Below are positions 1 through 37,575 of a stretch of 56,670 nucleotides of DNA, in pieces. Source of the stretch: a virus. The notes beneath the pieces are model-generated. The model did no database searches. It worked only from the letters and a program-made list of their open reading frames with translations, and had not been told where the DNA came from. The translations under genes and the position numbers were made by a program. The DNA is taken from positions 1 to 56,670 of IMG/VR virus record IMGVR_UViG_3300001282_000011; one strand, given 5' to 3'. Positions within the stretch are counted from its first letter, which is position 1. Each line of letters starts with the position of its first letter.

Positions 1-303
1 TTCTTCCCACCATTCTTCCCACCATTCTTCCCATTCTTCCCACCATTCTTCCCACCGTTCTTCCCACCATTCTTCCCACCATTCTTCCCATTCTTCCCAC
101 CGTTCTTCCCATTCTTCCCACCATTCTTCCCATTCTTCCCACCATTCTTCCCACCATTCTTCCCAGGATTCGGACCGTACTTCCCAGCCTTTAAGGGACC
201 ATTCTTCCCAGGATTCGGACCGTTCTTCCCAGGATTTGGACCGTTCTTCCCGTTCTTCCCAGGATTCGGTGGCGGACCATTCTTCCCAGGATTCGGATAC
301 TAA
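1..303 (+). CDS. C-terminal end of FFPP-repeat protein (partial)
   Basis: The reading frame is open from the first base and stops with TAA at 301-303, so only the last 100 residues are visible. They are almost pure Phe-Phe-Pro-Pro units with some FFP spacing, changing to GFGPFFP units and ending in FFPGFGY. The same ending closes the 1260-residue tail protein at 33793-37575, so the two are related at least at their C-termini. Nearly every Phe codon is TTC and the Pro codons are CCA or CCG, in a genome that otherwise uses TTT often. Function is unknown. A surface-exposed fibre or adhesin tail is my guess from the paralogue's position. The N-terminal part lies outside the window. Confidence 0.8.
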   Translation, partial: FFPPFFPPFFPFFPPFFPPFFPPFFPPFFPFFPPFFPFFPPFFPFFPPFFPPFFPGFGPYFPAFKGPFFPGFGPFFPGFGPFFPFFPGFGGGPFFPGFGY

Positions 304-311
304 TAAATTAA

Positions 312-336
312 AAGTGGGGGAGTAAATCCCCCACTT
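312..336 (+). terminator. Strong hairpin after the FFPP gene
   Basis: A perfect 10-bp inverted repeat (AAGTGGGGGA / TCCCCCACTT) with a 5-base loop begins nine bases after the stop codon. It is not followed by a clean T-run, so it is a terminator-like hairpin rather than a textbook intrinsic terminator. It separates the FFPP gene from the oxygenase operon. Confidence 0.65.
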
Positions 337-394: not shown

Positions 395-1099
395 ATGGAA
401 TGGTATGATTTACCAAGATTAGAAAAAACAAAAACAAGATTAGAGTCTGAATTTATACAAGATGGTATAGAGGTTATTAATTTAGATTACGGCATCCACT
501 TGTATAGAAATGCAGTTAATAAAGATGACTGTAAAACCATTATAGATTTAATTGAAAATGAAATATCTTTAGGCATACCAAAAATTCAATGGAATGAAGC
601 CAGTGTTAATGGTAAAGAAAGAACCACCCATGCAAGAAATTGTTATGATCTAAAATATAAAAAAGAAGCTCTTGGAACTTATATTCCTAAAAATGATGCT
701 TTGGCAAAAGCTCATGACATGGTTAATGATAGATTAAATGTTGCATTGCAGCACTATGAAAGATTATGGCATTTTTCAATAAAGTATAAAGAAGCATTTA
801 ACTTTGTAAAATATATGCCAGGTGAATTCTTTAAAATACATGCAGACCATGGACCATTTTATACATGTACAGTTTCTGCAATAGTTTATTTGAACGATGA
901 CTATGAAGGCGGGGAACTAGAATTTCCAAGACATGGATTAACAGTTAAGCCAAAGGCTGGAGACATTATGTTGTTCCCATCCAATTATGTATACGAGCAT
1001 GCATCATTAAATATAAGTTCAGGAATTAAGTATGCTGTAGTTATCATGATGGATTATAATGATTTATATCATAAATCAGAAAGTTCAGGCGGATATTAA
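395..1099 (+). CDS. 2OG-Fe(II) oxygenase, prolyl 4-hydroxylase-like (copy 1)
   Basis: This 234-residue protein has the C-terminal double-stranded beta-helix of the 2-oxoglutarate/Fe(II) oxygenases. The iron ligands are visible as H149-A-D151 and H202, and K212 fits the 2-oxoglutarate carboxylate site. Between them is the LNDDYEGGELEF stretch typical of phage and bacterial prolyl-4-hydroxylase-like proteins. The enzyme would use O2 and 2-oxoglutarate to hydroxylate a substrate that cannot be read from the sequence. It is the first of seven such genes. The start is fixed by AGGAG at 385-389 below a good promoter. Confidence 0.9.
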   Translation: MEWYDLPRLEKTKTRLESEFIQDGIEVINLDYGIHLYRNAVNKDDCKTIIDLIENEISLGIPKIQWNEASVNGKERTTHARNCYDLKYKKEALGTYIPKNDALAKAHDMVNDRLNVALQHYERLWHFSIKYKEAFNFVKYMPGEFFKIHADHGPFYTCTVSAIVYLNDDYEGGELEFPRHGLTVKPKAGDIMLFPSNYVYEHASLNISSGIKYAVVIMMDYNDLYHKSESSGGY

Positions 1100-1862
1100 T
1101 AAAATAATTTTTACAGCATTTAGACCATGGCTAACAAAATTTAGCCCATCAGTGCCAGGAACTACTCATTCTGTTATGCCTAAATGGTACAAGGATGCCG
1201 ACAGGTTTGCTAAAAACCCAATCAATGGTGAATATTACAAAGCTACCAAGGAAGTTTGTCCTTTTCCAAAAGAGGGTACAAATAATGATTACGGGTATAT
1301 CCCAACTTGGAAAGCTTGTCCAGCAGTTATGGATGCATTTATTACTGGTTATGTTTTTAAGACTCCATGTGATATAACATTCTATAAAGATAAAAATGGA
1401 AAAATTAATGTAAAAATAGATGATAAAAAAAATGCAGGTTTTTGTACAACAAGAGATCCGATGCCTCAGTTTGAGCATCCAACTGGTTATTATAAAGAAC
1501 ATTTTGCGTGGTATCCAGATTGGGCATTAGAAGTTCCTGAAGGGTATAGCTGTTTATATATGACTCCAATGAATAGATTTGACTTACCGTTTTTAAATAC
1601 AACTGGAGTTGTAGATAATGATAGTGTCCATTTATCTGGCACATTTCCATTCTTTTTGGTTGAAGGATGGGAAGGAACAATTCCAGCAGGAACACCGTAT
1701 TTACAGATACTTCCATTTAAAAGAGAAGACTGGCAGCATGAGGTAAAGTTTTTGTCACAAAAAGATATATATGATAAAATGACAGACAATATGAAATTCT
1801 ACCGTCAACCAGATGGCGGAGTATATAAAAGCAAGGTATGGAGTAGGAGAGAGTACAAATAA
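1059..1862 (+). CDS. DUF6065-like protein (copy 1)
   Basis: This 267-residue protein sits between oxygenase copies 1 and 2. It resembles the protein at 2519-3244 in architecture: a CPAVMDAF/CFPVSLAN-like stretch, an all-beta-looking middle, then an IPAGTP motif followed by a hydrophobic strand. I place both in or near the DUF6065 family from memory, with moderate confidence. The only ATG overlaps the upstream gene by 41 bases. A non-ATG start near 1100 is possible, since similarity to the paralogue seems to begin later. No catalytic motif is evident. It could be a partner or a substrate-binding protein for the neighbouring oxygenases. Confidence 0.7.
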   Translation: MIYIINQKVQADINKIIFTAFRPWLTKFSPSVPGTTHSVMPKWYKDADRFAKNPINGEYYKATKEVCPFPKEGTNNDYGYIPTWKACPAVMDAFITGYVFKTPCDITFYKDKNGKINVKIDDKKNAGFCTTRDPMPQFEHPTGYYKEHFAWYPDWALEVPEGYSCLYMTPMNRFDLPFLNTTGVVDNDSVHLSGTFPFFLVEGWEGTIPAGTPYLQILPFKREDWQHEVKFLSQKDIYDKMTDNMKFYRQPDGGVYKSKVWSRREYK

Positions 1863-1863
1863 A

Positions 1864-2538
1864 ATGCAAACTTGGTCATCAAAAGAGTCTCTAGGGAATG
1901 GTATATTTGTCTATAGAGATGTTATAAAAAAAGAAATTGATGTAATAGGCAGACTAGAAAACATTCTTAGTCCAGTAAATTCTGGCGCTAAGTATGCATG
2001 GCAGCCAGCGTATGTTGGGTATCAAGAACTTATGCCAGATTATAGAGACTGTGTAGATTTTAAATTCAAGAAGACCGACATTCAATTTGATAAAAGCGAA
2101 GAGTCCTCAAAACTTCAAAAATTGTGGCAAGACGTATTTGATGTACAATCTCCAGCCGTAAATGATTATAGAAAAGAACATAATCTTATGGACCTTAAAT
2201 ACTGGGAAGCATTTAATTTTATTAAGTATGGACCAGGACAACACTTTATGGAGCACCACGATCATGGATACTCATATAATTGTACTGTCTCTTTAGTTGC
2301 ATATGTTAATGATGATTACGAGGGTGGAGAATTATATTTCAGGTTGCAAAACCTGAATATTAAGCCAAAAGCTGGAGATTTATATATATTCCCTTCTAAC
2401 TACATGTACCCACATCAAGCAAAGCCAGTTATATCGGGAACAAAATATTCAATTGTTACTATGTTAGATTATAGTGGCAAGTTCCACTCACAAGAAATGT
2501 ATGATCCTAAATGGGAGAATGAGCCAAGTGTTAGTTAA
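1864..2538 (+). CDS. 2OG-Fe(II) oxygenase, prolyl 4-hydroxylase-like (copy 2)
   Basis: This 224-residue oxygenase has ligands H131-H-D133 and H184, with K194 as the probable 2-oxoglutarate contact, and the VNDDYEGGELYF signature. It is the closest relative of copy 1 in the window: both contain an EAFNF(V/I)KY segment before the HxD and an FPSNY segment before the distal His. I chose ATG 1864 over an upstream in-frame ATG at 1813. The later start follows an AGGAGAG ribosome site and abuts the previous stop, while the earlier one would overlap the previous gene by 50 bases. Confidence 0.9.
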   Translation: MQTWSSKESLGNGIFVYRDVIKKEIDVIGRLENILSPVNSGAKYAWQPAYVGYQELMPDYRDCVDFKFKKTDIQFDKSEESSKLQKLWQDVFDVQSPAVNDYRKEHNLMDLKYWEAFNFIKYGPGQHFMEHHDHGYSYNCTVSLVAYVNDDYEGGELYFRLQNLNIKPKAGDLYIFPSNYMYPHQAKPVISGTKYSIVTMLDYSGKFHSQEMYDPKWENEPSVS

Positions 2539-3244
2539 AGCCTATAAACATGCTGGACATAGGGTAAAGATAGAGCAGACTAAAGTAAAAAGGGACTGGA
2601 TGGATGCTACTGATAATGCTCATGCATACAAATGCTTTCCAGTTAGTTTAGCTAATACAATTGGATGGTCGATATCATTACTAGACGATGTCGAGTTTAT
2701 TTGGGATGGAATATCTGACTCAAGTTCGGAACACGTAAAGGTTTTAAAGGATCCAGCTGGAGCCTGTAGTACACAACGCTCTAATGGCACAATAAGTTTT
2801 TATACTGGTATCTTTTTTGAGACAGATAAAGACACGACAATGCTACAAATAGTTCCTCCTAATTACTTTATAGATGGTGCTGCGCCATTTACAACTCTTA
2901 TATCCACATCTTTTTTTCCAGAAGCAATTCCAGTTGCATGGAAAATAACTAGACCAAACACAGTAATAACTATACCAGCTGGTACTCCAATAGCTACTTT
3001 TATTCCAATATCATTGGCTAAATACAATGAGGTAGAGTTAGAAATTCAGGATAAGGTGTGGCCAGAGCTTTCTTGGAAACAAAAAGAAGAAAGAAACAAG
3101 GTCTGGCAAGAAATAACTATGCAGGGCAAGTTTACTAATTTTTATAGAGATGGTGTAGAGTATGATGGAACAAAAATTGGTGACCATGAATTAAAGGCTA
3201 TAAGGTTAAAAATTAACGATTTTTCTACAAAGATAGAGGAGTGA
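2519..3244 (+). CDS. DUF6065-like protein (copy 2)
   Basis: This protein of about 241 residues belongs to the same putative family as the gene at 1059. It contains CFPVSLANTIGW, a DVEFIWDG stretch and an ITIPAGTPIATFIP motif, consistent with a beta-sandwich. The start is uncertain: ATG 2519 is too near a GGGAG at 2513-2517, whereas GTG 2528 is spaced 10 bases from it. Both overlap the end of oxygenase copy 2. The last codons hold the -10 box of a promoter for the next gene. No enzymatic motif is recognised. Confidence 0.72.
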   Translation: MSQVLVKAYKHAGHRVKIEQTKVKRDWMDATDNAHAYKCFPVSLANTIGWSISLLDDVEFIWDGISDSSSEHVKVLKDPAGACSTQRSNGTISFYTGIFFETDKDTTMLQIVPPNYFIDGAAPFTTLISTSFFPEAIPVAWKITRPNTVITIPAGTPIATFIPISLAKYNEVELEIQDKVWPELSWKQKEERNKVWQEITMQGKFTNFYRDGVEYDGTKIGDHELKAIRLKINDFSTKIEE

Positions 3245-3250
3245 TATAAT
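3242..3250 (+). promoter_or_regulatory. Extended -10 promoter, leaderless
   Basis: TGATATAAT lies here, overlapping the preceding stop codon. Only six bases separate the -10 box from the ATG at 3257, so transcription should start on or next to the start codon. No good -35 box is seen, as is common for extended -10 promoters. Confidence 0.55.
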
Positions 3251-3256
3251 ATTAAT

Positions 3257-4015
3257 ATGGAAAAGATGAATGTAAATCATTTAGATCAGGTGACAAAATC
3301 TATCACCCCATCAGGATTTTTTGGGACCAGCAAAGATAATATTGTTGAACTAGAAAACTTTATGACAGAAGAAGAGATAGACTTTTTGGAAAAATCTGCA
3401 AAAGGTATAACAATTTGGGATTATACAGAAAGCCATGTCAATGAAAATGGAACCACAATATATGATGCTAACTATTGGAAAGATAGAGTGGCAACTAGAC
3501 CATCATTAGATAAGAATGATCCAAAAATTGGTCCAGTTATTGAAGGTCTATTTAAAAGACTTCAGCCAATTATAGAAGACTTTTTCTATGTTAGAGTACA
3601 GCCAACTGGACAAACAATTGTAAGATGGTTACCAGGACAATTACAAAAACCTCATGCTGATAAAGAACTACATGATGGTCCAGATGCAGGACTGCCAAAT
3701 GATTTTCCATATTACGACATAGCAAGTTTATTTTATTTAAACGATGACTACGAAGGTGGAGAAATCTACTGGCCTCTACAAGGAGTTAGAATTAAGCCTA
3801 AAAGAGGAGCAGCATACTTTTTCCCAGGAGACATGAATTATATACATGGCGTCACCGAGATAAAAGGAAATATAAGATATACAGTTCCTTTCTTTTGGAC
3901 CATATTAGAACACACTGGAGAAAATAAGCCTGAGGCAGGTAAAGAGTATTATAGGACGCTATTAGATCCAGAAATGCGTGGAAAGAATCTTTATGAAAGT
4001 GTTTACGAGGGGTAA
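3257..4015 (+). CDS. 2OG-Fe(II) oxygenase, prolyl 4-hydroxylase-like (copy 3)
   Basis: This 252-residue oxygenase has H133-A-D135, distal H197 and R207, with the LNDDYEGGEIYWP signature between. The N-terminal half contains an ENFMTEEEIDFL segment like the dimer-edge helix seen in many P4H-like proteins. An insertion rich in Gly, Pro and Asp lies between the HxD and the next strand, so the substrate pocket probably differs from copies 1 and 2. It is apparently translated from a leaderless transcript, because no ribosome site precedes the ATG. The next gene starts three bases after its stop. Confidence 0.9.
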   Translation: MEKMNVNHLDQVTKSITPSGFFGTSKDNIVELENFMTEEEIDFLEKSAKGITIWDYTESHVNENGTTIYDANYWKDRVATRPSLDKNDPKIGPVIEGLFKRLQPIIEDFFYVRVQPTGQTIVRWLPGQLQKPHADKELHDGPDAGLPNDFPYYDIASLFYLNDDYEGGEIYWPLQGVRIKPKRGAAYFFPGDMNYIHGVTEIKGNIRYTVPFFWTILEHTGENKPEAGKEYYRTLLDPEMRGKNLYESVYEG

Positions 4016-4017
4016 AA

Positions 4018-4761
4018 ATGTCTAATTATACAAGATTAACTCAAGATATTTTGTTGTATGAAAACTTTTTGACTAAAGAGGAGTCCCAAGCAATTATTGA
4101 TGTTATGGAAGCTCAGGTTAAAAATGAAAAGTTGTCTTGGACACCAATTACATTTTATGAATCTTATTCTTCCGTTCTTCCGCAAGACGGTGACGAAGAA
4201 CTAGAGCAATTCGGATTGCCTTCTGATTTTTTTTCTGTGCTTCAGAATAGAATAGTTGAAGCAGTTGCAGAGGTTCATGGAAAACAATTTTCCGATATTC
4301 ACAAGATTGGTTTTCATGCTCAGAAGTGGGAGCCAGGAGCCTTTGCAAAAGAACATTCAGACAATACAGATTTAGAAGGCAACACTGGACCATTTGAAAG
4401 AAGCAGGTACGCTGCCTTTTTATACCTTAATGACGAGTTTGAAGGCGGACTACTAAAGTTCAATAAGCAAGATAAATTGATTTATCCTAAGACAGGTTCT
4501 TTAGCTGCTTTTGCAGGCGGGTTTGATAATACTCATGAGGTTACAATGATTACTTCTGGCATTAGGTACACGCTTGGATCATTTTGGGACGACAGAGACC
4601 AGAGTGCTTACCCTCAAGAAACAATTGATGCCTGGGACGCTGAAATGAAAAGAATTAGAGAAGAGCAAGAAGTGATAAAGGCTGGTTGGCAAGATGCACT
4701 AAAAGAAGGATATAAGTTAGATCCAGACGGAAATAAATATAAAATGGAGGAAAACGAATAA
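4018..4761 (+). CDS. 2OG-Fe(II) oxygenase, prolyl 4-hydroxylase-like (copy 4)
   Basis: This 247-residue oxygenase has H113-S-D115, distal H173 and R183. The usual NDDYEGGE stretch has drifted to NDEFEGGLLKF, making this one of the more divergent copies. The C-terminal extension is charged and helical (rich in Glu and Lys). GAGGGG before the ATG serves as ribosome site and lies within the last codons of copy 3, implying translational coupling. Its stop overlaps the start of copy 5 by one base. Confidence 0.88.
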   Translation: MSNYTRLTQDILLYENFLTKEESQAIIDVMEAQVKNEKLSWTPITFYESYSSVLPQDGDEELEQFGLPSDFFSVLQNRIVEAVAEVHGKQFSDIHKIGFHAQKWEPGAFAKEHSDNTDLEGNTGPFERSRYAAFLYLNDEFEGGLLKFNKQDKLIYPKTGSLAAFAGGFDNTHEVTMITSGIRYTLGSFWDDRDQSAYPQETIDAWDAEMKRIREEQEVIKAGWQDALKEGYKLDPDGNKYKMEENE

Positions 4762-5525
4762 TGCAACTAGAAGAAAGATTACATGAAAATGTTTACATGT
4801 ATTCGGATGTAATTGAGAATCCTCAAGAAATTATTGATCTAATCAATAAGCTGGATTCTGACGAAAGAGTTCACAAGGTTATTCCTAAGTGGAACAATTG
4901 GAACTCAAGCAGCAGAGATGGAAATATCTTTGGTAAGAAAAAAGATTTCAATCTAGCTGAAGTAGAAGGTTTAGATCCAGAAGTTAGAAAGGATGTAGAC
5001 TTAATTATTTCTACGATTAGAAATGCAATTAGAAATATTGCAGAAGCTTTTATTGTAGACAGAGGTCTGAAGGGAGAGCCAAACGTTTCTCCTTTCGTAG
5101 GTATTTCTAAATATATTCCAGGTTGTGCCATGGGAGCACATTTTGACAGACAGGCTGGAGATAACAGTTTAGAGTGGTCAATTATCATTTATTGGAACGA
5201 CGATTATGAAGGTGGAGAAATATCATTTGTAATCAGACCAGAAGACTTAAGACTAGAGGTTAATGGTCATTTGAGACCACCAGACGACGCTCTAGATCCA
5301 AGAACTAAAGACATGGTTACATTTACTGCAAAGCCAAAAGCTGGTAGCGCACTAATATTCCCATCTACTGACCCATACAAGCATCAAGTTCATATTATGA
5401 AAGAGGGAGAAAAATATATTACTCCAGGTTTCATATTTGTAGATGGCTATGTTGTTGGTGGCCCAGGAGGTCCTTCAGAGGAGTACATCAAAGCTTATCA
5501 CGAGCAAATGAATGGAATGATGTAG
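4761..5525 (+). CDS. 2OG-Fe(II) oxygenase, prolyl 4-hydroxylase-like (copy 5)
   Basis: This 254-residue oxygenase has H127-F-D129, distal H208 and K218, with WNDDYEGGEISF between. A loop of about 30 residues containing LRPPDDALDP is inserted before the distal-His strand, a feature absent from the other copies. A GGAGG ribosome site precedes the ATG, which overlaps the previous stop (TAATG). The C-terminus is Gly-Pro rich (VGGPGGPSEE). The substrate is unknown. Confidence 0.88.
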   Translation: MQLEERLHENVYMYSDVIENPQEIIDLINKLDSDERVHKVIPKWNNWNSSSRDGNIFGKKKDFNLAEVEGLDPEVRKDVDLIISTIRNAIRNIAEAFIVDRGLKGEPNVSPFVGISKYIPGCAMGAHFDRQAGDNSLEWSIIIYWNDDYEGGEISFVIRPEDLRLEVNGHLRPPDDALDPRTKDMVTFTAKPKAGSALIFPSTDPYKHQVHIMKEGEKYITPGFIFVDGYVVGGPGGPSEEYIKAYHEQMNGMM

Positions 5526-6323
5526 TTGTCTTTTGATAACATTGAAGTGGAAGTTCTTCACCCTAAAATTTGGGTTTTTAAAAACATACTAACTCAAAGT
5601 GATGATTTAATAAATTATCTAAGGGGTGAAGAATTTTCTAATCAATGGATGCAATGGTATTCTTTCGGAGAAAAAATTTATCTTCCTATAGGAGGATCTA
5701 GTTTTGAAAAATTTCCATCTGATTTAGAATGGTCTGAAAAAATAACGCTTGAGTCTTCTAAAAACAAATCACTTCAAGAATTTACCGATTCTTTTTATTA
5801 CATAACAAAAAAATATACTGAGTCTCAAGGAATAGTTTTAGATAATTGGGAGTTTGGTAGCCCAGATTTGTGTTACTATAATGAAATGTCTGGTGTTTCT
5901 GGAACCCAGGCCATGAATTATCATACTGATTATCAGCTAGAAAGAGATTACGAGCCAGGTATGAAATTTGAAACAACTTCTGTGTTTTACCTAAATGATA
6001 ATTATGATGGTGGAGAAATATGTTTTAAGGTATTCGAAGAAGACTATTCAAAAGTTTTACACAGAATATCGTACAAACCATCAAAGGGAGATGCAATAAT
6101 TTTCCCATCCAAGCACCCCGTCTATCATGGAGTAAAAATTGTTGAAAACGGAACTAAGTACATAATTAGAAGTTATTGGAAATATTGGCAGGACGGAACA
6201 GAAGAATACTACAATGATAAAAACTCTATGGGCGTAGAAGAGTTTGAAGAATTTTTAGATCAAAGACACAAAGACATTTGGAATGAAATTGTTAGTAAAA
6301 CTCATGATGATGTAACAGGATAA
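5526..6323 (+). CDS. 2OG-Fe(II) oxygenase, prolyl 4-hydroxylase-like (copy 6)
   Basis: This 265-residue oxygenase, the longest of the set, has H133-T-D135, distal H201 and K211, with LNDNYDGGEICF between. It starts with TTG directly after the previous TAG and has no clear ribosome site, so it probably depends on translational coupling with copy 5. The C-terminus ends in an acidic and basic helix. Compared with the others it has a longer aromatic N-terminal region before the core. Confidence 0.85.
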   Translation: MSFDNIEVEVLHPKIWVFKNILTQSDDLINYLRGEEFSNQWMQWYSFGEKIYLPIGGSSFEKFPSDLEWSEKITLESSKNKSLQEFTDSFYYITKKYTESQGIVLDNWEFGSPDLCYYNEMSGVSGTQAMNYHTDYQLERDYEPGMKFETTSVFYLNDNYDGGEICFKVFEEDYSKVLHRISYKPSKGDAIIFPSKHPVYHGVKIVENGTKYIIRSYWKYWQDGTEEYYNDKNSMGVEEFEEFLDQRHKDIWNEIVSKTHDDVTG

Positions 6324-6325
6324 TC

Positions 6326-6928
6326 ATGAATATAAATAAACTTTTACCAGACATTTATGAGGTTGAAAATTTTATAACAGAAAAAGAACAGTCTCTTATT
6401 CTAGACCAGATAAAGTTACTAGATGAAAGTTACTGGTATGCAATGGATAAGAATGCATACGAGTTTAATTTTTGGGATGGCAAAATAATAGATCCAATGG
6501 TTCATGAACTAAATGATAATCTTTACGATGGCATAAATGTTAAATGTAAAAAGATTTTTGATTCGTTTTTAGAGATTACTGGAATAAATATTGCCAGATA
6601 CACTAAAGATGATTTTTTAGGCACACACAGGGATTATTGGAAATACGATGAAGATTATCATATAAGATACGGTCTTGTTATATATTATAATGATGATTAC
6701 GAGGGCGGAGAGATAGAGTATCCAGAACTAAATCTAATACATAAGCCAAAAGCAAGGTCCATGTTGATTCATGGTGGAAACATATTACATGGAACGCTGC
6801 CAGTTAAAAGTAATAATTATAGATATATATCTACAATGTTTGTTAAAGGATCTAAAGATAAACCTGCAGTTCTAAGCAAGGAACTGTTTGATGGAATAGA
6901 GGAATCAGATGGAACAATTTATAGATAA
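6326..6928 (+). CDS. 2OG-Fe(II) oxygenase, prolyl 4-hydroxylase-like (copy 7)
   Basis: This 200-residue oxygenase, the shortest of the seven, has H101-R-D103, distal H155 and R166, with YNDDYEGGEIEYP between. It keeps the ENFITEKEQ helix near the N-terminus seen in copies 3 and 4. All residues needed for iron and 2-oxoglutarate binding are present, so it should be active. Its last 20 bases overlap the methyltransferase gene, suggesting that the two are expressed together. Confidence 0.88.
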   Translation: MNINKLLPDIYEVENFITEKEQSLILDQIKLLDESYWYAMDKNAYEFNFWDGKIIDPMVHELNDNLYDGINVKCKKIFDSFLEITGINIARYTKDDFLGTHRDYWKYDEDYHIRYGLVIYYNDDYEGGEIEYPELNLIHKPKARSMLIHGGNILHGTLPVKSNNYRYISTMFVKGSKDKPAVLSKELFDGIEESDGTIYR

Positions 6929-7511
6929 AAGAAACTTTATAAGTTCTTCGGACTCATTTGCACTAGACATCCTGAATTATAAGAGGGATGGATACTATGT
7001 TGAAATGGGTTCAGCAGACCCCATTAAGGGAAATACTACTTATAGAATGGAAAAAGATTACGGATGGAAAGGACTAGGGTTTGACTTAAACGAACAGCAT
7101 GCTAAAAACTATAACTCGGTTAGATCCAATCCATGCCTAGTAGAAGACGCAACTAAATTTAATTACCTAAAGTATTTTGAAGAAAATAATTTTCCAAAAC
7201 AAATAGATTATCTTCAAATTGATATAGAGAGTCCAATGGACAGAGGCGGGAGACCTCAGCATCCAATAGGACAACCGCTTTTAGGTTTAATTGCTTTGCC
7301 ACTAAATCATTATAGATTCACTGTCATTTCTTTCGAGCATGAGTTTATAATTCATTATAAAAATGCTTCTTTGAGAGATGCACAGAGAGAAATTTTAGAT
7401 AGCCTCGGCTATTCATTAGTTTGTAAAATTGGCCATGAAGATTGGTGGGTTGACTCTACAGTTATTCCTTACCAAGACTACAAGTGGTACTCTAGATTTG
7501 AGTCGCCATGA
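6909..7511 (+). CDS. FkbM-like SAM-dependent methyltransferase
   Basis: This 200-residue protein has class I methyltransferase features: motif I is VEMGSADP (residues 31-38), followed by a strand ending GFDLN with an acidic residue at 59, as in the FkbM family. A later DYLQIDIES strand matches motif IV. FkbM-type enzymes usually O-methylate sugars or hydroxylated small molecules. Placed directly after seven oxygenases, it could methylate a newly made hydroxyl group, but that is inference. The ATG lies within the end of the previous gene. Confidence 0.75.
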   Translation: MEQFIDKRNFISSSDSFALDILNYKRDGYYVEMGSADPIKGNTTYRMEKDYGWKGLGFDLNEQHAKNYNSVRSNPCLVEDATKFNYLKYFEENNFPKQIDYLQIDIESPMDRGGRPQHPIGQPLLGLIALPLNHYRFTVISFEHEFIIHYKNASLRDAQREILDSLGYSLVCKIGHEDWWVDSTVIPYQDYKWYSRFESP

Positions 7512-25735: not shown

Positions 25736-26325
25736 TGGCATTTGAGAATTTACCTAAAGGTTCTATCCTTTACATAAAGGCAACAGACCCTCTTGCTATA
25801 GATCCTGCAAATAATCAATTTACCTATGGTGGATCTACATTTACTGCTCCAGGACAAAAGTATTTATCGGCGGTGGCTACAAGAAACGGACTTGCCGTCG
25901 GAAATAAAACTCAAACCAGATTTAGAAGAGTAACAGAGCATAATAGGTCAGAATTTAGTGTAACCCCTATCAGAATAGAAAGGCAAGAAAGAATGGCTAA
26001 TGGGTCTCTACGTAAATACGTAATAGCAGACAAGAAGTCATTTAGCCTATCTTGGACAATGTTGCCATCATTTAGAAATGAGACGGTAGATGGAGCATGG
26101 GGGGCGGAAGACCTAAAAGCCTTCTATGAATCTACACTAGGACAAGGTACATTTGATATTATGATAAATCCTACATCCTTTGATCCAGCAGTCAATTTAG
26201 AGAATACAGGCGTATTAGCAGATGATTATACCTATACAGTTACATTTACATCTTGTGACTTTGTAGTAGTTAAAAGAGGCATCCAGGCATATTGGAATGT
26301 AAATATGAGCATGGAGCAGGTATGA
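25735..26325 (+). CDS. Putative distal tail (Dit-like) protein
   Basis: This 196-residue beta-rich protein directly follows the tape measure gene and precedes the large hub gene, the place of the distal tail protein in siphoviruses. It contains SFSLSWTMLPSFRNETVDGAWG and a last strand with YWNVNMSMEQV, in line with the N-terminal tube-like domain of Dit. The start has AGGAGG in front. It overlaps the next gene by four bases. Confidence 0.7.
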   Translation: MAFENLPKGSILYIKATDPLAIDPANNQFTYGGSTFTAPGQKYLSAVATRNGLAVGNKTQTRFRRVTEHNRSEFSVTPIRIERQERMANGSLRKYVIADKKSFSLSWTMLPSFRNETVDGAWGAEDLKAFYESTLGQGTFDIMINPTSFDPAVNLENTGVLADDYTYTVTFTSCDFVVVKRGIQAYWNVNMSMEQV

Positions 26326-29300
26326 TCCAATTAAATGAAACAGTTAAGAATATATTAAAGACGAGTAGGAGTATCTCTACTTCGGCGGGCGCACTTATTG
26401 AGTACAATATGAATAATATGGTGAATCATATTAGCGGAACATCTAATGCTAATTATGGAGACCTTACTAATGCTTATAATAAGTTATTTCCTATAGACAC
26501 AATATACAAACCATTTAGACCCTTACTCCCAGGAATTAAATATTTAATTTATACAGTAGGGAATACTGACACTCAAGAAAACTCATTTGTTTCCCCCAGA
26601 GAATTAAATCCAGAAGGCACAAGACTATACTATCCTGGAGACAGCATGACATACAAGTATTGGCTTGGCCCTAAGGATGAAGATATTAGTATTTCTATCT
26701 CATACTTTAAAGATGAAGCTAAAACAATTCCAAAGATAATCGTAGCAAATAAAATTATTGCAAGATTTGAGGTTAGTCATGATGTTCCAACTTCATGGAC
26801 AATTACCGCAACTAAGCAGGACAACACTACAATCACTGCAACAGGAACCGCACTTGTTAATGGTCAAGCAACGATTTACTATAACGGAACAACTTGGTCT
26901 ACAAACGAACCATCTACATTTAATGCTTATCAACAATTTAAATCTATATCATTGCAAGCCGTTAACTCAAACAGTGGTAAGCTAATAGGAGTAATAGAGT
27001 TTGCCCCTATTTGGGTGGTAGACATTACAAATGATATTCAAAGTTTTAATATTTTAAAAGAAACCAGCGACGACACAGACTCAATTATTCCAGTAGGAAA
27101 TTTAACAGCAAATACATTGTCGCTATCTTTAAATAAATATACTCAAGGATCTTTAAACTTAAAAGAGTACCTTAGAGATTCTGATATAGACCCTACAATA
27201 TTATACGCATTTAAAGATGCAGTTATTAAACCTTATATAGCAATTAAAGATGGAGCCACATCTTATAAAATAAATCAAGGATTATTTTATATGCATTCAT
27301 GGTCTATCGGAGAGTTTGGAAATGGCGATGTAACGGCTTTAGATTCCGCAAAAATACTTCAAGAAATTTTATGTCCTGAAATATTAATACAGGACTATCC
27401 AATTACTGCTGTGATAAGAACACTGTTAGACTCTGTAGGATTTTCTAATTATAAGTTTTATGTTAAAGATGAGGACGAATCTATTCCTTCCGTTAAGTAC
27501 TGGTGGTCGGACAGAAGCAAGACAGTTTGGGAATGCCTACAAGAGCTATGTAGAGACATACAAATGAATGCGTTTGTTGACGAAAATAATATACTTAACT
27601 TTTATAGTAGGGAGTATATTTATGACTCAGAAAAAAATCCTGATTGGATTTTAACTAGTGAAAATTATGTAGATGGCAGCACTACAATTATTCCAAACAT
27701 AGTAGACTTTTCTTCTTCAGAGATAGCATCTGCAAATGCTGTAAAGGTAATATGGTCAGCAGCTTCTACATCAGAATATGACGGATCATCTTCGCCACTA
27801 TGGAAATCAGAAGAGACATACTTAGGCGCAGGAACATTAGCTGATCCATTGACGAGCACAGACGAATATTTTTCTTTAAACAATAGCACAATATCTCAAG
27901 ACAATAACTTGCAAGCATTATTTAGCTTTAATGGATACGTTTTGATTAATGATGAGATTATTGAATATGATGGCATTGAATACCAGTATGTTCCAAAAGA
28001 TGGGCCTTCTGATCCTCAAGAAGTATTAATTAAGTCTGAGTCTGATATTTACAAATATAGGTACCTGTCTAAACCAGGGTATGAAGATATTAACAATATT
28101 AATAGTGCATACTTTAAGCCAACAGGAAGGTACAAGATTAAATCAAGAGCTTTGTGGAATACAAAAACACCTCCTACTCATGAAAAATCTCCAAACTCAT
28201 ACATCAATGTGGCTGGAGAAAATGATCCTAAAAAGTTTAATAGATATTCAGTTAAACTGCTATCTGCCACAGCATCTACCAAAAAAGAAGACGATCCAGG
28301 ATTATTTAAGTCTGACGCAAATTCTCAACAGAATACTATCAGTAAATCATTTTTAGCTTTAAGTAATTTGGACAAGGATAAAACTACATACGATATAGCA
28401 GTCAGATCCTTTGACTCAATAGATACTTCAAAAAATTACTTTGCATTTGGCACCAGAATGTATTTTGATACACAGTTTGAAAGCCCTGCACAAATAGGAG
28501 GCTTAGCCCTTTTTACATCTAATGATGGCAAGAATGGCTACTATATAACTATTCATACAACTGCATCTTCCAAAACAAAAAAAGAAATTAGAATTATGAA
28601 ATTTAGTAATAATGGCAAAGTGTTGTTGTTAAAAGATAGTCAATCAAAAAGTATAAATAGGTTGGCTGGCATATATGCTGGCCAAGCATACAATATAGAT
28701 GTTAGGCTAAAAGTTGGAGTAGAACAAAACGAAATAGTTGTGTTTATTAACGGATTTAAAATAAAGGCTGTTGATAACAATACAGATACATCTCCAAAAT
28801 TATCAAAAGGGAAAAACATAGGATTACTCTGCGGACAAGGGGTTGTATATTATGAATATGCGTATGCAAAGTCTATAGAAGACACAGAGTATGAAAATTC
28901 AACTGCAAAGAGTAGTTTCTTTTTTGACGGAGTTTTTTCTGACGATACGATTTCATTACTACATGGAAATATCGTTTATTCACAAGGAGAGAATGAAAAT
29001 AAAAGAGATGAGGCGTTCCTGGAGTTTGGCACTACTGCCAGAGAAATAAGAAAGTCTAAGGTTAAATATAATGGAGGGCCTTCAATTCCGTTAAAGTTTT
29101 CTACGGCTGCAAATAAGTATGCAACCGTTCTTGACACTAAACTTCAGCCGTTTGAAGCCGAAGCTTATGTTTTAAACAACACATCAACTTTTATTCCATT
29201 GGATGATGGAAACTATAGCAGTTTTTATGTATTAGGAAATACAGTAAATAAATCTAGCCCATTAGAATATAGTACACACGATGCTTCTGAGCTTGCAACA

Positions 29301-29570
29301 AAAGAGCCAGTCATATTTGAATCAAATTGGATACAAACTGAACCAGCAGCTAAGGCCTTGGCGGATTGGGTATCTAGTACTGTTTTAAATAAAGGAAGAT
29401 ATGTAGAAATGAATATCTTTGGAAACCCAGCCTTATCAGCTGGAGACATAGTATCAATAAATTATCCATTGCAACAGCTAGATGCAAACAACAAGTATAT
29501 TGTTACACGGGTAGAAACGCAATATTCTGAGGGGGTATCCACTAGACTAACCTGCAGAGCTATTGGATAG
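26322..29570 (+). CDS. Tail hub / tail-associated protein (Tal-like)
   Basis: This 1082-residue protein occupies the hub position after Dit. Residues from about 360 to 500 (IRTLLDSVGFSNY, then VWECLQELCRDIQMNAFVD, NILNFYSREY) resemble the hub domain that reads local coordinates in phage tail-tip proteins. Around 680-850 is a LamG-like sandwich (GYYITIHTTASS through EIVVFINGFKIKAVD). The C-terminus (AGDIVSINYPLQQLD, YIVTRVETQY) matches the closing domain of such hubs. ATG 26322 overlaps the previous stop (ATGA); an earlier in-frame ATG at 26292 is less likely. Confidence 0.8.
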   Translation: MIQLNETVKNILKTSRSISTSAGALIEYNMNNMVNHISGTSNANYGDLTNAYNKLFPIDTIYKPFRPLLPGIKYLIYTVGNTDTQENSFVSPRELNPEGTRLYYPGDSMTYKYWLGPKDEDISISISYFKDEAKTIPKIIVANKIIARFEVSHDVPTSWTITATKQDNTTITATGTALVNGQATIYYNGTTWSTNEPSTFNAYQQFKSISLQAVNSNSGKLIGVIEFAPIWVVDITNDIQSFNILKETSDDTDSIIPVGNLTANTLSLSLNKYTQGSLNLKEYLRDSDIDPTILYAFKDAVIKPYIAIKDGATSYKINQGLFYMHSWSIGEFGNGDVTALDSAKILQEILCPEILIQDYPITAVIRTLLDSVGFSNYKFYVKDEDESIPSVKYWWSDRSKTVWECLQELCRDIQMNAFVDENNILNFYSREYIYDSEKNPDWILTSENYVDGSTTIIPNIVDFSSSEIASANAVKVIWSAASTSEYDGSSSPLWKSEETYLGAGTLADPLTSTDEYFSLNNSTISQDNNLQALFSFNGYVLINDEIIEYDGIEYQYVPKDGPSDPQEVLIKSESDIYKYRYLSKPGYEDINNINSAYFKPTGRYKIKSRALWNTKTPPTHEKSPNSYINVAGENDPKKFNRYSVKLLSATASTKKEDDPGLFKSDANSQQNTISKSFLALSNLDKDKTTYDIAVRSFDSIDTSKNYFAFGTRMYFDTQFESPAQIGGLALFTSNDGKNGYYITIHTTASSKTKKEIRIMKFSNNGKVLLLKDSQSKSINRLAGIYAGQAYNIDVRLKVGVEQNEIVVFINGFKIKAVDNNTDTSPKLSKGKNIGLLCGQGVVYYEYAYAKSIEDTEYENSTAKSSFFFDGVFSDDTISLLHGNIVYSQGENENKRDEAFLEFGTTAREIRKSKVKYNGGPSIPLKFSTAANKYATVLDTKLQPFEAEAYVLNNTSTFIPLDDGNYSSFYVLGNTVNKSSPLEYSTHDASELATKEPVIFESNWIQTEPAAKALADWVSSTVLNKGRYVEMNIFGNPALSAGDIVSINYPLQQLDANNKYIVTRVETQYSEGVSTRLTCRAIG

Positions 29571-29969: not shown

Positions 29970-30830
29970 ATGATAACTCAATTTGGAAAACGTTTTTTGA
30001 CAAACTTTATAGCTGGCAATGCCTCATTTGCGACTAAAGATTTAGCAGTTGGTATTGCAAATAATTCTGAGTATTCATTATCTAACACAAACTCAAGACT
30101 AGGGTTTGAATTCTATAGAATGCCAGTAGAGTTTGGAGGAATAAATATAGACACTTCTGTATCTCCAAATACTTATACTGTTATATATTCAGCAACACTA
30201 CCCTCAGACCTTGCTGGTAAAATAAACGAAATTGGAATATTTCCAGGAACCAGATCTTCAATAAATAATTACGATAGCAAATTTATTACAGACTTCGAGC
30301 TGCCTTTTGACTGGAGCCCAACTCCAGACATAGATCAATCTAATTATAGAGTTGGTAATAGTTCACTTGTATTTGAATCAAACGGGGCGGCAGATCAAGA
30401 ATATGTTTCTACTATAGAAACTTTAGATATTAGCGGATACAGTAATTTTGACACAATATCTTTTTCATTCAAAGCACTAGATTCTAATTTATCTGAAATT
30501 AAATTAAGATTATATAGCTCAGCATCTAATTATGTAGAAATGATATTTGATTCTTATTCTGCAGGAAACAATATTGTAGAAAAAACTTTATCGGAGTTTG
30601 TAACGGTTGGGTCTCCAGATAAAGCAAATATAACACAAATAGGAATTGTTATATCCCCAACCTCTTCAGCAACATCAGTCGTTGTTGACGGGTTAAGAAT
30701 AAATGACGAAGACACTTTTGATCCAGCATATGGACTTATTTCTAGAAAGGTTTTGCCTTCTGAGGTTGAAAAAGTTTCAGGTAAAGAATTAATTATAGAA
30801 TACAAGATGGACCTTTCTTTCGGAGGATAA
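29970..30830 (+). CDS. Putative baseplate or minor tail protein
   Basis: This 286-residue protein opens with MITQFGKRFLTNFIAGN, a start common in phage minor tail proteins of the fibre region, followed by a beta-rich domain (KDLAVGIANNSEY, YSATLPSDLAGKINEIGIFPG). The second half (about 115-250) reads like a carbohydrate-binding-module jelly roll (FELPFDWSPTPDIDQSNYRVGNS, then TISFSFKALDS and VVVDGLRIND). AGGAGAG precedes the ATG. It probably links fibres to the tail tip or binds glycans. Confidence 0.65.
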   Translation: MITQFGKRFLTNFIAGNASFATKDLAVGIANNSEYSLSNTNSRLGFEFYRMPVEFGGINIDTSVSPNTYTVIYSATLPSDLAGKINEIGIFPGTRSSINNYDSKFITDFELPFDWSPTPDIDQSNYRVGNSSLVFESNGAADQEYVSTIETLDISGYSNFDTISFSFKALDSNLSEIKLRLYSSASNYVEMIFDSYSAGNNIVEKTLSEFVTVGSPDKANITQIGIVISPTSSATSVVVDGLRINDEDTFDPAYGLISRKVLPSEVEKVSGKELIIEYKMDLSFGG

Positions 30831-33792: not shown

Positions 33793-36700
33793 ATGAGCTG
33801 GTGGCGAAAAAACGGACCTGGTGAAGATAGTGTCTCTGAAAACGGCTGGATCCAAATTAAAAGTATTTGGAGAAAAGCCTCACCTCAAGATGAAGCAAAC
33901 TCTAATGAAAGTCAAAATCCGTGGGTAATTGATGGATGGCTAAAAATAAAAAGTGCTTGGCGACTAGATTCAATAGTAAATGGTGTTAGAAATTGGGTAA
34001 GAATATTTTCTGGCACTAATCTTCCAACTCCTAAAATTCCATACACAGAGCTATACTATATTTGGCCAGATGGTTTTGAAACAATTGATAGTCCAATCAA
34101 TGGGTCAAGCATGTATGTTACAAGAGGATCTTGGACAGAAGAGCCAGAAGAATTTAGATTAAGAATTCAAGAGCTTGCACCAGGAGGAACATGGTCTGCA
34201 TTATATGATTTTACTAAAATTTATGAAGAATATTTAGAGTCTCAGTCAACAAACAAATTCCCATCAGATGCAAATGCGGCATCTAGACCAGTTATATCTA
34301 AAACTAAAACTAGGCAAGGTTATAAGTTTAGAGGAAGGGTTGATGCAAAGACTCCAGGAGGTTTAGAAAACTTTTATATAACTCCAGAATCAATGCCTAG
34401 AATTGATTTCTACATAGCAGACTTTATTGTGTATGACGAAGAAGCTGACGGAGCTACATTTAGCTGGTCTTACGCAGCACTTGCCACAGGTAATACCGTA
34501 GATGATAATTTAGATATATTTTCTCAAAAACTTAATGTTTATGACGAATTAGGTGAGTTATTGATGTCAATTCCAGTAACCACCCCAACAACTACATACA
34601 TATTAACTAGCCCACTTCTTGAGCCAAATAAGATTTACAGTGTTGAGTTAGAGGTTGTTGGAACAGATGGTTATACTGAGACAGATGATAAAACTATAGA
34701 TTATGCTTATGTGGACTTAGAGACTATTATAGACGAACCAGTAAATGTTACACCACCAACTCTTACCCTTCAATCTGGAACAGCAAACAAAACAGGTTCA
34801 ACTTATAGGCTTTCTTCTGGAGAGTGGACAAACGAACCAACAGAATTTAGATATCAGCTAGAGTTAAATAATGAAGCTGGAACAGTGCTAGCTTATTACC
34901 CATCTTCTACTGGTTACACTTCAGAAACTTATTTCGATTATCAATTTACTAGCCCAACCACAAGTACAGTTTCTGGATCTGTAATAGCAAGTAATGGGGC
35001 TGACAGCCTCCCAGCATATTCAAACTCTATAGGGCCAATTACTCAACTTCAGTATACTATAACTTATGAGGAGCTTGGGGGTACAGTAGTATCAGATGAT
35101 ATTGTAAATGCAGGAAGCAGTGTATTTTTGCCAACTACCTCTAGGCAAGGTTACATTTTTAATGGATGGTACACAGAGCCACTAGGTGGTGGCACTTATG
35201 TTGGTGGAGGAGGCCCAACTCCTACATCATACACTCCAACTGAAAGTATAACTCTTTATGCTAGCTGGACAGGAATAGAGTATACAGTAACGTGGAATAA
35301 AAATGATGGAACTTCAGACTTTACTTCTGATACTGTTATTTCTGGAACCACAATATATGCACCAACACCCTCTTCTAGAGAACATTATAATTTCACTAGA
35401 TGGAGAAATCCACAGTCTGGTGGAGACCCAATATTTCTTAATGCTGGTGATGCGTGGATAGTAACATACTCATTTCAATTTTATGCACAATGGGTTGCAA
35501 AAACTTATACTGTTACATTTAATTATGGCTCAGGAACTGGAACTCCAGCGACAAGATCAGTTCAATATCCAGGAACAGTAACTTTACCTACTCCAGATTC
35601 AAACGCAGACTATATTTTCAATGGATGGTACACTGGTCCAAACGCAACGGGAACTTTTGTCGGAGGAAGCGGGCCAACACCAACACAGTATCAGCCAACA
35701 AGCAATATAACGCTGTATGCAGACTATACAATTGCTCAGCGTACAATAACATGGAATGCCAACGGAGGAACTGGCGGAGGAACTACTGGACCGTTCAATG
35801 CAGGTACAGCTCATACTGCGCCTTCACCAGGTACAAGAGCAAACTATGCATTCTTGTACTGGAGAGATTCTATTTCTGGTGACTATGCATTCCAGGTTGC
35901 TGACGGTGGCACATTTATTCCTCCATACTCTGGAATGACTTTTTATGCTAGATGGTCTTTAAATCAATATACAGTTTCATATAACGGAAACGGTGGAACA
36001 CCAACTAGAACTTCAGATATTGTGAATGCAGGATCATCAATCACATTGCCTTCAGCTTCAAGAGATGGCTACGTTTTGGATGGCTGGTACACTGCTGCTA
36101 CTGGAGGAACATTTTTAGGAAATCCAGGGTCATCATATACCCCGTCTGCTTCAGTTACTATATATGCTAGATGGTCTGTTATCACATACACAGTAACGTG
36201 GAACGCAAATGGTGGCACCGTTAACCCAACATCAAGCTCAGGAGTTTTGGGTCAAGTTGTGACTGCACCTACTCCCACCAGAGACGGATATACTTTTGTT
36301 TATTGGAGAAATCCATCCTCTGGAGATATGCTTTACAATATATCAGCAGGAGCTAACTGGTCTATAAATGGCAGCATAACTTTTACTGCAGTTTGGTCAA
36401 TAGCCCAGTACACAGTATCTTTTAGTGCAAATGGTGGAACTGTTAGCCCATCTTCTAGCACCGTGAATGCTGGATCTTCAGTCACCTTGCCAACACCAAG
36501 CAGAGACGGATATAGTCTTAATGGATGGTACACACAGTCTTCTGGTGGCACCTTTCTTGGTCAACCTGGTACAAGTTATACTCCAACTTCCTCAATTACT
36601 ATTTACGCACAATGGGCAATAACACAATATACAATAAACTGGAATGCCAACGGAGGAACGGGAGGAGGAACTACTGGACCGTTCAATGCAGGAACCTCAC

Positions 36701-37575
36701 ATACCGCACCATCTCCAGGAACAAGAAGTGGCTATGCATTCCTTTATTGGAGAGATTCAATTTCAGGAGATTTTATTAATCAAGTTTCTGATGGAGGAAG
36801 TTTTGTACCTTCTGGAAATACAACTTTTTATGCTAGATGGTCTCAAAATACATTCACATACTATGTTGGAACTTCAACATGTAATGTTTTGTCGGGATGT
36901 TATTCATCATTACCTTCAGCAAGCGGACCATTTAATGGAGTTGGATCTATGCCGACTGATATTACAGAGGGCCCATCTAACGCTAGAGTAAAAACTGTTT
37001 ATAGATCTACTTATGCTGATGCACTTGCTGCGGCTGCCAATGCATCTTGTGTTAATTGCACACCAGCACCGTTCTTCCCGCCCTTCTTCCCACCATTCTT
37101 CCCACCGTTCTTCCCTCCATTTTTCCCTCCGTTCTTCCCACCATTCTTCCCAGCACCAAGTGTTTACTATATAGGAACTTCTACATGCAACGTATCATCT
37201 GGTTGCTACTCTAGCCTTCCATCTGTTAGTGGGCCATTTAACGGAACTATGCCATCAGATACCACAACTGGAGGAACAACTGCCAGAGTTAAAACTGTAT
37301 ATAGATCTACACAGGCAGAAGCGTTATCAGCAGCAGCAAACGCATCCTGCATTAGCTGCGCCCCAGCACCGTTCTTCCCTCCGTTCTTCCCACCGTTCTT
37401 CCCGCCAACATTTGGTCCGTTCTTCCCACCGTTCTTCCCACCGTTCTTCAAAGCACCAGCACCGTTCTTCCCTCCATTCTTTGGTCCGTTCTTCCCACCA
37501 TTCTTCCCACCAACATTCGGACCATTCTTCCCACCAACATTTACAACCCCATTCTTCCCAGGATTTGGATACTAA
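33793..37575 (+). CDS. Tail fibre/adhesin with eight Listeria-Bacteroides repeats and FFPP tail
   Basis: This 1260-residue protein starts directly after the previous stop. The N-terminus (WWRKNGPGEDSVSENGWIQIK) may attach to the tail, and two Ig-like sandwiches follow. From about residue 415 to 1020 there are eight repeats of the Listeria-Bacteroides (Flg_new, PF09479) kind, each with a (T/S)(V/I)...NGG start and an aromatic ...YA.W end. The rest has two copies of a 65-residue module with four Cys each, separated and followed by FFPP tracts, ending FFPGFGY. Such repeats act as adhesive stalks. The overall architecture is new to me. Confidence 0.82.
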   Translation: MSWWRKNGPGEDSVSENGWIQIKSIWRKASPQDEANSNESQNPWVIDGWLKIKSAWRLDSIVNGVRNWVRIFSGTNLPTPKIPYTELYYIWPDGFETIDSPINGSSMYVTRGSWTEEPEEFRLRIQELAPGGTWSALYDFTKIYEEYLESQSTNKFPSDANAASRPVISKTKTRQGYKFRGRVDAKTPGGLENFYITPESMPRIDFYIADFIVYDEEADGATFSWSYAALATGNTVDDNLDIFSQKLNVYDELGELLMSIPVTTPTTTYILTSPLLEPNKIYSVELEVVGTDGYTETDDKTIDYAYVDLETIIDEPVNVTPPTLTLQSGTANKTGSTYRLSSGEWTNEPTEFRYQLELNNEAGTVLAYYPSSTGYTSETYFDYQFTSPTTSTVSGSVIASNGADSLPAYSNSIGPITQLQYTITYEELGGTVVSDDIVNAGSSVFLPTTSRQGYIFNGWYTEPLGGGTYVGGGGPTPTSYTPTESITLYASWTGIEYTVTWNKNDGTSDFTSDTVISGTTIYAPTPSSREHYNFTRWRNPQSGGDPIFLNAGDAWIVTYSFQFYAQWVAKTYTVTFNYGSGTGTPATRSVQYPGTVTLPTPDSNADYIFNGWYTGPNATGTFVGGSGPTPTQYQPTSNITLYADYTIAQRTITWNANGGTGGGTTGPFNAGTAHTAPSPGTRANYAFLYWRDSISGDYAFQVADGGTFIPPYSGMTFYARWSLNQYTVSYNGNGGTPTRTSDIVNAGSSITLPSASRDGYVLDGWYTAATGGTFLGNPGSSYTPSASVTIYARWSVITYTVTWNANGGTVNPTSSSGVLGQVVTAPTPTRDGYTFVYWRNPSSGDMLYNISAGANWSINGSITFTAVWSIAQYTVSFSANGGTVSPSSSTVNAGSSVTLPTPSRDGYSLNGWYTQSSGGTFLGQPGTSYTPTSSITIYAQWAITQYTINWNANGGTGGGTTGPFNAGTSHTAPSPGTRSGYAFLYWRDSISGDFINQVSDGGSFVPSGNTTFYARWSQNTFTYYVGTSTCNVLSGCYSSLPSASGPFNGVGSMPTDITEGPSNARVKTVYRSTYADALAAAANASCVNCTPAPFFPPFFPPFFPPFFPPFFPPFFPPFFPAPSVYYIGTSTCNVSSGCYSSLPSVSGPFNGTMPSDTTTGGTTARVKTVYRSTQAEALSAAANASCISCAPAPFFPPFFPPFFPPTFGPFFPPFFPPFFKAPAPFFPPFFGPFFPPFFPPTFGPFFPPTFTTPFFPGFGY
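34980..36850 (+). repeat. Eight tandem Listeria-Bacteroides-type repeats, alternating two types
   Basis: Eight protein repeats of roughly 73-76 residues. Odd ones contain a GWYT motif (GWYTEPLG, GWYTGPNA, GWYTAATG, GWYTQSSG); even ones contain a (R/Y)WR motif (RWRNPQSG, YWRDSISG, YWRNPSSG, YWRDSISG). Repeats 4 and 8 are nearly identical even in DNA. This indicates duplication of a two-repeat unit. Confidence 0.8.
37069..37572 (+). repeat. FFPP tracts with Cys-module duplicate
   Basis: Tandem 12-base units (TTC TTC CCA CC) encode FFPP from 37072 to about 37150 and again from 37372 to the stop. Between them is the second copy of the Cys module (YYIGTSTCNVSSGCYSS onward). The same 12-base unit makes up positions 1-300. 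Confidence 0.85.

Follow-up and report, generated by a model that had tools for sequence, protein, structure and literature searches.

The viral record IMGVR_UViG_3300001282_000011 of IMG/VR (positions 1 to 56,670, treated here in full as a window of 56,670 bases) carries near its left end a cassette of seven 2-oxoglutarate (2OG)-Fe(II) oxygenase genes. The cassette begins 91 bases after the end of a gene that encodes an aromatic-proline repeat, and a second protein with the same type of repeat is encoded further downstream. Portal, head protease, tape measure, tail, replication and terminase genes are recognised on the same record, with the portal gene 3.4 kb downstream of the oxygenases. The pairing of repeat gene and oxygenases recurs in many other viral contigs, and it points to a candidate substrate for the enzymes.

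The oxygenase cassette and its repeat partners

The cassette and the features that belong to it are as follows.

1..303, + strand: 3' end of the aromatic-proline repeat gene, recognised by translation and composition; the contig starts inside the gene
312..336, + strand: hairpin with a 10-bp stem in the gap ahead of oxygenase 1 (from the RNA fold of 300-394, z -4.64, and a terminator-like scan)
395..1099, + strand: 2OG-Fe(II) oxygenase 1, prolyl 4-hydroxylase (P4H)-like (PF13640, E 5e-11)
1059..1862, + strand: phrog_7084 protein, "D" (phrog_7084, E 1.7e-32; recurrent place in the cassette)
1813..2538, + strand: 2OG-Fe(II) oxygenase 2, P4H-like (PF13640, E 9e-15; predicted structure with pLDDT 89)
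2474..3244, + strand: DUF6065 protein, "d" (PF19541, E 3e-35; model with pLDDT 85)
3257..4015, + strand: 2OG-Fe(II) oxygenase 3 (PF13640, E 2.6e-6, 28.8 bits against a cut-off of 27)
4018..4761, + strand: 2OG-Fe(II) oxygenase 4 (PF13640, E 3e-9)
4761..5525, + strand: 2OG-Fe(II) oxygenase 5 (PF13640, E 5e-9)
5526..6323, + strand: 2OG-Fe(II) oxygenase 6, TTG start (PF13640, E 3e-10; remote, nearest tree distance 1.31)
6326..6928, + strand: 2OG-Fe(II) oxygenase 7 (PF13640, E 1.3e-7; nearest relative copy 6 of locus L144, far off at tree distance 1.21)
6909..7511, + strand: protein that weakly matches FkbM methyltransferases (PF05050, E 0.019, below cut-off)
33793..37575, + strand: second (FFPP)n protein, 1260 residues, with eight InlB-type repeats followed by FFPP runs, downstream of tail genes

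All seven oxygenase open reading frames (ORFs) pass the curated Pfam cut-off of PF13640 (27 bits) with 28.8-55.9 bits, and a search of the whole record likewise gives seven matches above it. The HxD pair and the distal His are invariant, and the 2OG site holds Lys or Arg in every copy. The first-pass annotation had read seven intact oxygenases with these residues in 395-6928, which holds, and its description of the copies as divergent is right because identity to copy 1 is 23-40%. It left unmentioned that two interleaved genes (1059-1862 and 2474-3244) are not oxygenases, and it passed over both the proline-repeat gene directly upstream and the second repeat protein. It also presented a set of seven as unfamiliar and suggested a search for operons of at least five such genes. 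Of the 80 loci found through the enzymes, 59 have five or more copies on the same strand within 10 kb, and 26 have seven or more; since clusters of five or more are common, the set is not unique. The cassette genes probably form an operon, because they share a strand and either overlap or are separated by no more than 12 bases.

The translation of 1-303 consists of (FFPP)n followed by PFFPGFG units, with 47 F, 36 P and 13 G in 100 residues. A 348-residue ORF with a similar aromatic-proline tail occupies the same place in a close relative (L144/L009), where the gene is intact. The protein at 33793-37575 carries eight Listeria-Bacteroides (InlB-type) repeats and ends in PFFPGFGY, the same ending as that of the gene at 1-303. 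Tail-family proteins at 26292-29570 and 29970-30830 precede it. Sixteen named records match this protein, over its InlB-type part only, and it has no match to collagen (PF01391). The hairpin at 312-336 is possibly a terminator or attenuator. Stems of at least 8 bp follow 56 of 154 repeat-gene stops, compared with 82 of 728 oxygenase stops, counts that include overlapping loci and copies of the window. A scan for sigma-70 promoters stayed at chance level (45 found, 44.4 expected).

Five relatives (G103, G010, G002, G097 and G098) carry FFPP at two places 38-45 kb apart. The left end of the window appears to be a place where the assembly broke at a repeat, because three of these contigs start within about 60 bases of one. 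At the other end, the near-identical phage contig G091 (loci L375 and L376) encodes a DNA polymerase 100% identical to that of the window, matches its last 120 bases exactly and runs past its right end, where it carries three further PF13640 genes. The phage type of the window therefore probably carries at least ten PF13640 genes. By portal and DNA polymerase the nearest named relatives are Streptomyces phages such as BillNye and Yaboi (56-58% identity), so the host is likely actinobacterial. A megablast search of positions 1-25000 against named phages returned zero matches.

Recurrence of the pairing across viruses

The pairing was followed in record sets seeded by the repeat, the enzymes, the portal and the polymerase; these sets share contigs and are not independent. 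An FFPP-coding pattern occurs in at least 119 viral stretches, compared with 17 in a prokaryote genome collection. Of the 119 viral records, 80 were used, and PF13640 is matched in 70 of them (68 over cut-off), with at least five copies in 45. Closed FFPP ORFs followed by at least 1.5 kb of sequence number 99, counting both of those in the window. In 68 of them an oxygenase on the same strand lies no more than 1.5 kb downstream, and the gap shrinks to 33-55 bases in L012, L016 and L042. The search seeded by the enzymes gives a matching picture: an aromatic-proline repeat ORF is present in 69 of 80 loci and lies upstream of the first oxygenase in 68 of those 69. Of the 11 loci that lack one, six leave no more than 0.7 kb between the locus edge and their first oxygenase, and L197 leaves 0.84 kb. 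In place of (FFPP)n, L196 (6188-7510) and L198 (9094-9912) carry (HFPP)n ORFs right upstream of the oxygenases, in which the histidine recurring every four residues might bind metal. L206, with one oxygenase, shows a short proline-rich tail instead of a repeat.

Within the prokaryote collection, repeat and oxygenases occur together in L130, L134 and L142, and the repeat stands at the locus edge in L141; L127, L133 and L137 look like chance frames, and nine others have neither. The remaining stretch, L139 from Marinithermofilum abyssi, encodes a protein whose C-terminal FFPP tail is short, and its 8-kb locus lacks an oxygenase. The cassette probably extends beyond one phage lineage, because the window's portal was unfound in 14 of 35 large records, a number to which fragments may contribute. 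The T4-type capsid family PF07068 was matched in none of the 35 records and is uninformative, since the control genomes gave no match either.

Presence and absence were also compared among relatives by portal and by DNA polymerase. Of 80 portal loci, 29 extend at least 9 kb upstream: 15 have both repeat and oxygenase, 10 have neither, four have an oxygenase without a repeat and none has a repeat alone. In two of the four oxygenase-only loci (L240 and L260) the left end of the cassette falls outside the locus. No repeat ORF is found among 1685 six-frame ORFs of 49 portal loci without an oxygenase. The portal tree was scored at three or more oxygenases, leaving out the repeat state of L240 and L260. 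Each trait changes three times on it, and two independent contrasts are well supported, both of them concordant. One portal match, on the 101 kb contig L187/G084, contains ten in-frame stops amid many short ORFs, which reflects either a frameshifted assembly or another genetic code.

Relatives by DNA polymerase comprise the 37 of 80 loci whose contigs reach 40 kb or more. Records with at least five PF13640 genes show an exact repeat pattern in 8 of 10 cases, those with one to four genes in 2 of 11, and those without any in 1 of 16 (8/10 against 3/27, Fisher p 1.6e-4, with relatedness still in the counts). Of the two misses, G107 has a repeat of hybrid type, PPGFFSPPFF, ahead of its cassette, and G124 leaves 0.9 kb between the contig end and the start of its first oxygenase match. 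In G091, G092 and G099, the three extras, the repeat precedes the polymerase by a few kilobases, which is where the second copy, that of the tail module, stands; their cassette region presumably lies off the contig.

Gene order was compared in 74 loci that have three or more oxygenases and whose repeat ORF could be read, and cassette composition varies there together with repeat type. With O for oxygenase, two orders prevail: repeat, O, D, O, d, O and so on, and repeat, O(O), d, D, O and so on. The DOd order appears only with FFPP-type repeats (41 of 41, relatedness being still in these counts). The dD order accompanies 19 FFPP cassettes and all nine PPxFFx cassettes with a classifiable order; five of the 74 show neither. 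Oxygenase copy number ranges from 3, the selection floor, to 11.

A tree and residue counts were obtained for 468 oxygenases. These come from the 76 loci, the window among them, in which four or more oxygenases have a repeat upstream. The first active-site His is kept in 463, the Asp or Glu in 460, the second His in 457 and the Lys or Arg in 459, with all four in 450. For 353 of the 468, the nearest neighbour from another locus holds the same position, whereas 500 shuffles of position within loci averaged 69 such cases and never gave more than 98. To judge from these sequence relationships, most copies are old paralogues kept in order. Window copies 1-3 group with the same positions in other loci, copies 4-5 group with shifted ones, and copies 6-7 are remote.

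Repeat type varies between cassettes: besides FFPP there are PPxFFx, the hybrid of G107 and the HFPP of L196 and L198. Throughout this variation, Pro-Pro beside aromatic residues stays constant, and Lys and Arg are almost absent from the repeats. Among 14 repeat proteins scanned (two of them identical), fibronectin-III is matched over cut-off in four and below it in two, and PASTA and InlB-type domains in one each. Weak Hint/intein matches occur in two of the 14, one of which also has fibronectin-III over cut-off, and five entries, one a duplicate, have no informative domain match. The protein of L034 that joins fibronectin-III to FFPP has no named-phage match, and a PPxFFx relative in L231 reaches 23.3 bits for Collagen PF01391 (cut-off 27.2). 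Proteins encoded upstream of the repeat gene match tail-fibre families, with an Mtd_N domain in L016, and a Collagen-domain protein lies near the cassette of L203.

The two DUF6065-like proteins are members of the cassette. The model of the protein at 2474-3244 has a dUTPase-like fold (Z 10.8 to dUTPases), and its gene has no match among named phages. Relatives of phrog_7084 occur in haloarchaeal HF2-type viruses; in HJTV-1, the one such virus examined, a putative tail-fibre gene stands four genes away from it, on the opposite strand. Relatives of the protein at 6909-7511 follow the cassette in some loci ("m" in the gene-order strings), and the protein has no sequence match in the PDB.

Candidate substrates of the oxygenases

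Searched against solved structures, a profile of the seven copies first finds bacterial P4Hs (1.3e-11), prolyl 3-hydroxylase 1 and the viral P4H of PBCV-1 (5c5t); LH3 and PKHD-type enzymes are also among the matches. The predicted structure of copy 2 (pLDDT 89, pTM 0.85) has the P4H-type double-stranded beta-helix fold. Its best match is algal P4H-1 in complex with (Ser-Pro)5 (3GZE; Z 21.0, root-mean-square deviation 1.9 Å over 172 residues), and further matches among those listed are mostly prolyl hydroxylases, including a Pseudomonas P4H bound to EF-Tu and the PBCV-1 enzyme (5C5T, Z 18.1). A P4H-type fold alone is no proof of the reaction.

With these enzymes encoded directly behind a proline-repeat gene in locus after locus, we consider it probable that the P4H-type battery modifies the phage's own proline-repeat proteins. 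The cassette would make and mature a proline-rich structural protein encoded beside tail-fibre genes. That protein would consist of folded modules (fibronectin-III-like, PASTA or InlB-type where recognised) and a run of FFPP, PPxFFx or HFPP repeats. The downstream oxygenases, seven here, would hydroxylate prolines of the run, and the window's second FFPP protein, in the tail module, may be hydroxylated as well. Separate and mostly order-conserved paralogues could act at different prolines or repeat registers. Once hydroxylated, a polyproline-type rod would become stiffer, and its very hydrophobic sequence would gain polarity. In a stricter version, each ordered paralogue would mark its own proline or register and so produce a patterned hydroxyproline-rich fibre in phages, a position-coded arrangement that we put forward tentatively and would rate at somewhat less than even. 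Hydroxyproline-rich fibres are otherwise known from collagens, whose maturation depends on prolyl hydroxylases, and from plant wall proteins.

Several points weigh against the modification of repeat proteins by this battery. Proline hydroxylation itself is something that we infer, and the P4H fold was modelled for one of the seven copies. In known systems one P4H usually serves a repeat substrate, so need alone does not explain seven enzymes. The repeat criterion was first FFPP and was widened twice after looking, and each count follows the criterion of its own analysis. Phylogeny confounds the counts: two independent portal-tree contrasts are too few for significance. PF13640 is unmatched in 10 of the 80 FFPP records, some of them long (G008, 36.8 kb; G072, 38.4 kb). 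The locus L148, also among the 11 enzyme-seeded loci that lack a repeat, holds six oxygenases, yet the 4.1 kb ahead of them contain no proline-repeat ORF; a Hint-like end at the locus edge may be the tail of the missing protein. Two of the 29 portal loci (L262 and L276) have a single oxygenase and no repeat, and one to four PF13640 genes stand without a repeat pattern in 9 of the 11 such polymerase records. Because isolated oxygenases occur without a repeat in relatives, they need a separate explanation. Copies 6 and 7 are remote from the other oxygenases.

The last two points also fit a reading in which the enzymes are protein hydroxylases with other targets, such as other tail proteins, host EF-Tu or Lys, Asn and Asp residues, and the repeat travels with them in an exchanged tail-fibre module. 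LH3 and PKHD-type enzymes among the structural matches and the EF-Tu-bound Pseudomonas P4H among the fold matches fit such targets, and further genes of a tail-fibre module would be linked too. Hitch-hiking, however, does not predict a partner that is rich in Pro-Pro in three repeat types, and the adjacency of repeat and oxygenases (33-55 bases) persists in records in which the window's portal was unfound. We regard this alternative as unlikely.

The first-pass annotation had suggested several substrates or sites, for instance tail proteins, glycans or modified bases. The separate paralogues support distinct lineages and possibly distinct sites, and tail-protein hydroxylation gains support as an option. 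Glycans and modified bases gain none from the closest solved relatives, which are protein prolyl and lysyl hydroxylases. DNA or nucleotide modification or repair by TET/JBP-like or AlkB-like enzymes is very improbable in our assessment. Its support includes TET/JBP (PF12851) matches of 13.2-18.5 bits in copies 1, 3 and 7 (best E 0.0012) against a cut-off of 34.9; the other four copies have no listed match and no copy passes the cut-off. The dUTPase-like predicted fold of the DUF6065 protein and a repair role once proposed for cyanophage 2OG oxygenases, in a passage of PMC3037559, point the same way. Against it, AlkBH8 appears in the PDB profile search at E 0.035, compared with 1e-11 for P4H. 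The cassette lies 3.4 kb ahead of the portal gene and, in relatives, behind genes of tail-fibre families, and none of the 39 proteins of the window that were searched was identified as a hypermodification enzyme. The best 50 fold matches of copy 2 contain no AlkB chain, which excludes nothing.

Two further readings are scarcely credible. Tuning of the host 2OG pool by enzymes with no dedicated substrate, proposed in a passage of PMC3037559 for cyanophages that carry up to five, leaves the order-conserved paralogues, the adjacency to the repeat and the joint presence and absence unexplained. Redundant copies sharing one job, through neutral duplication or dosage, would suit the variable copy number of the 74 cassettes, but most copies belong to old, position-conserved clades with intact residues and are not recent duplicates.

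Relation to known hydroxylases

The enzyme of PBCV-1 (vCPH, 5C5T) is also a viral P4H-fold enzyme, which we take to be an algal-virus protein described singly. Here, in contrast, the enzymes are in tandem on bacteriophage contigs and adjoin an FFPP-type gene and two DUF6065-like partners. Chlamydomonas P4H-1 (3GZE, 2JIG), presumably of the plant and algal wall-protein type, is the best structural match and was solved with a short-period proline-repeat peptide, (Ser-Pro)5. It is a eukaryotic enzyme with (Ser-Pro)n as substrate, whereas the candidate substrate in the window is (FFPP)n. The closest bacterial relatives in sequence and fold are the P4Hs of Bacillus anthracis and Pseudomonas putida, single cellular enzymes that are not known to have an adjacent repeat substrate. 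Collagen-like phage tail proteins are likewise proline-repeat structural proteins; no triple helix is implied here, because FFPP is not Gly-X-Y.

Related oxygenase sequences exist in cyanophages. Table 3 of PMC3037559 gives up to five 2OG-Fe(II) oxygenases per cyanophage genome, with other roles proposed there. One cyanophage region (L293, 30 kb, ACG-2014f) has a single oxygenase match and no repeat ORF among its 113 ORFs. The title of Eriksson 1999, as it stands in the references of PMC9301287, names 4-hydroxyproline in viral proteins in an algal virus system. P4H genes in aquatic viromes are reported in passages of PMC9301287, PMC9611531 and PMC9469726, the first of which describes abundant P4HA in Baltic viruses and states that its viral use "remains cryptic". 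A cassette of this kind, with phage P4H clusters linked to a repeat substrate, is undescribed in the literature searched, which is no proof of novelty, as subscription journals and preprints were beyond reach.

The finding names a testable substrate that is encoded directly beside the enzymes and recurs with them. If the proposal is true, phages build hydroxyproline-rich structural proteins with a multi-enzyme kit that would be useful for protein engineering, and viral P4H genes would shift from "auxiliary metabolism" to virion assembly.

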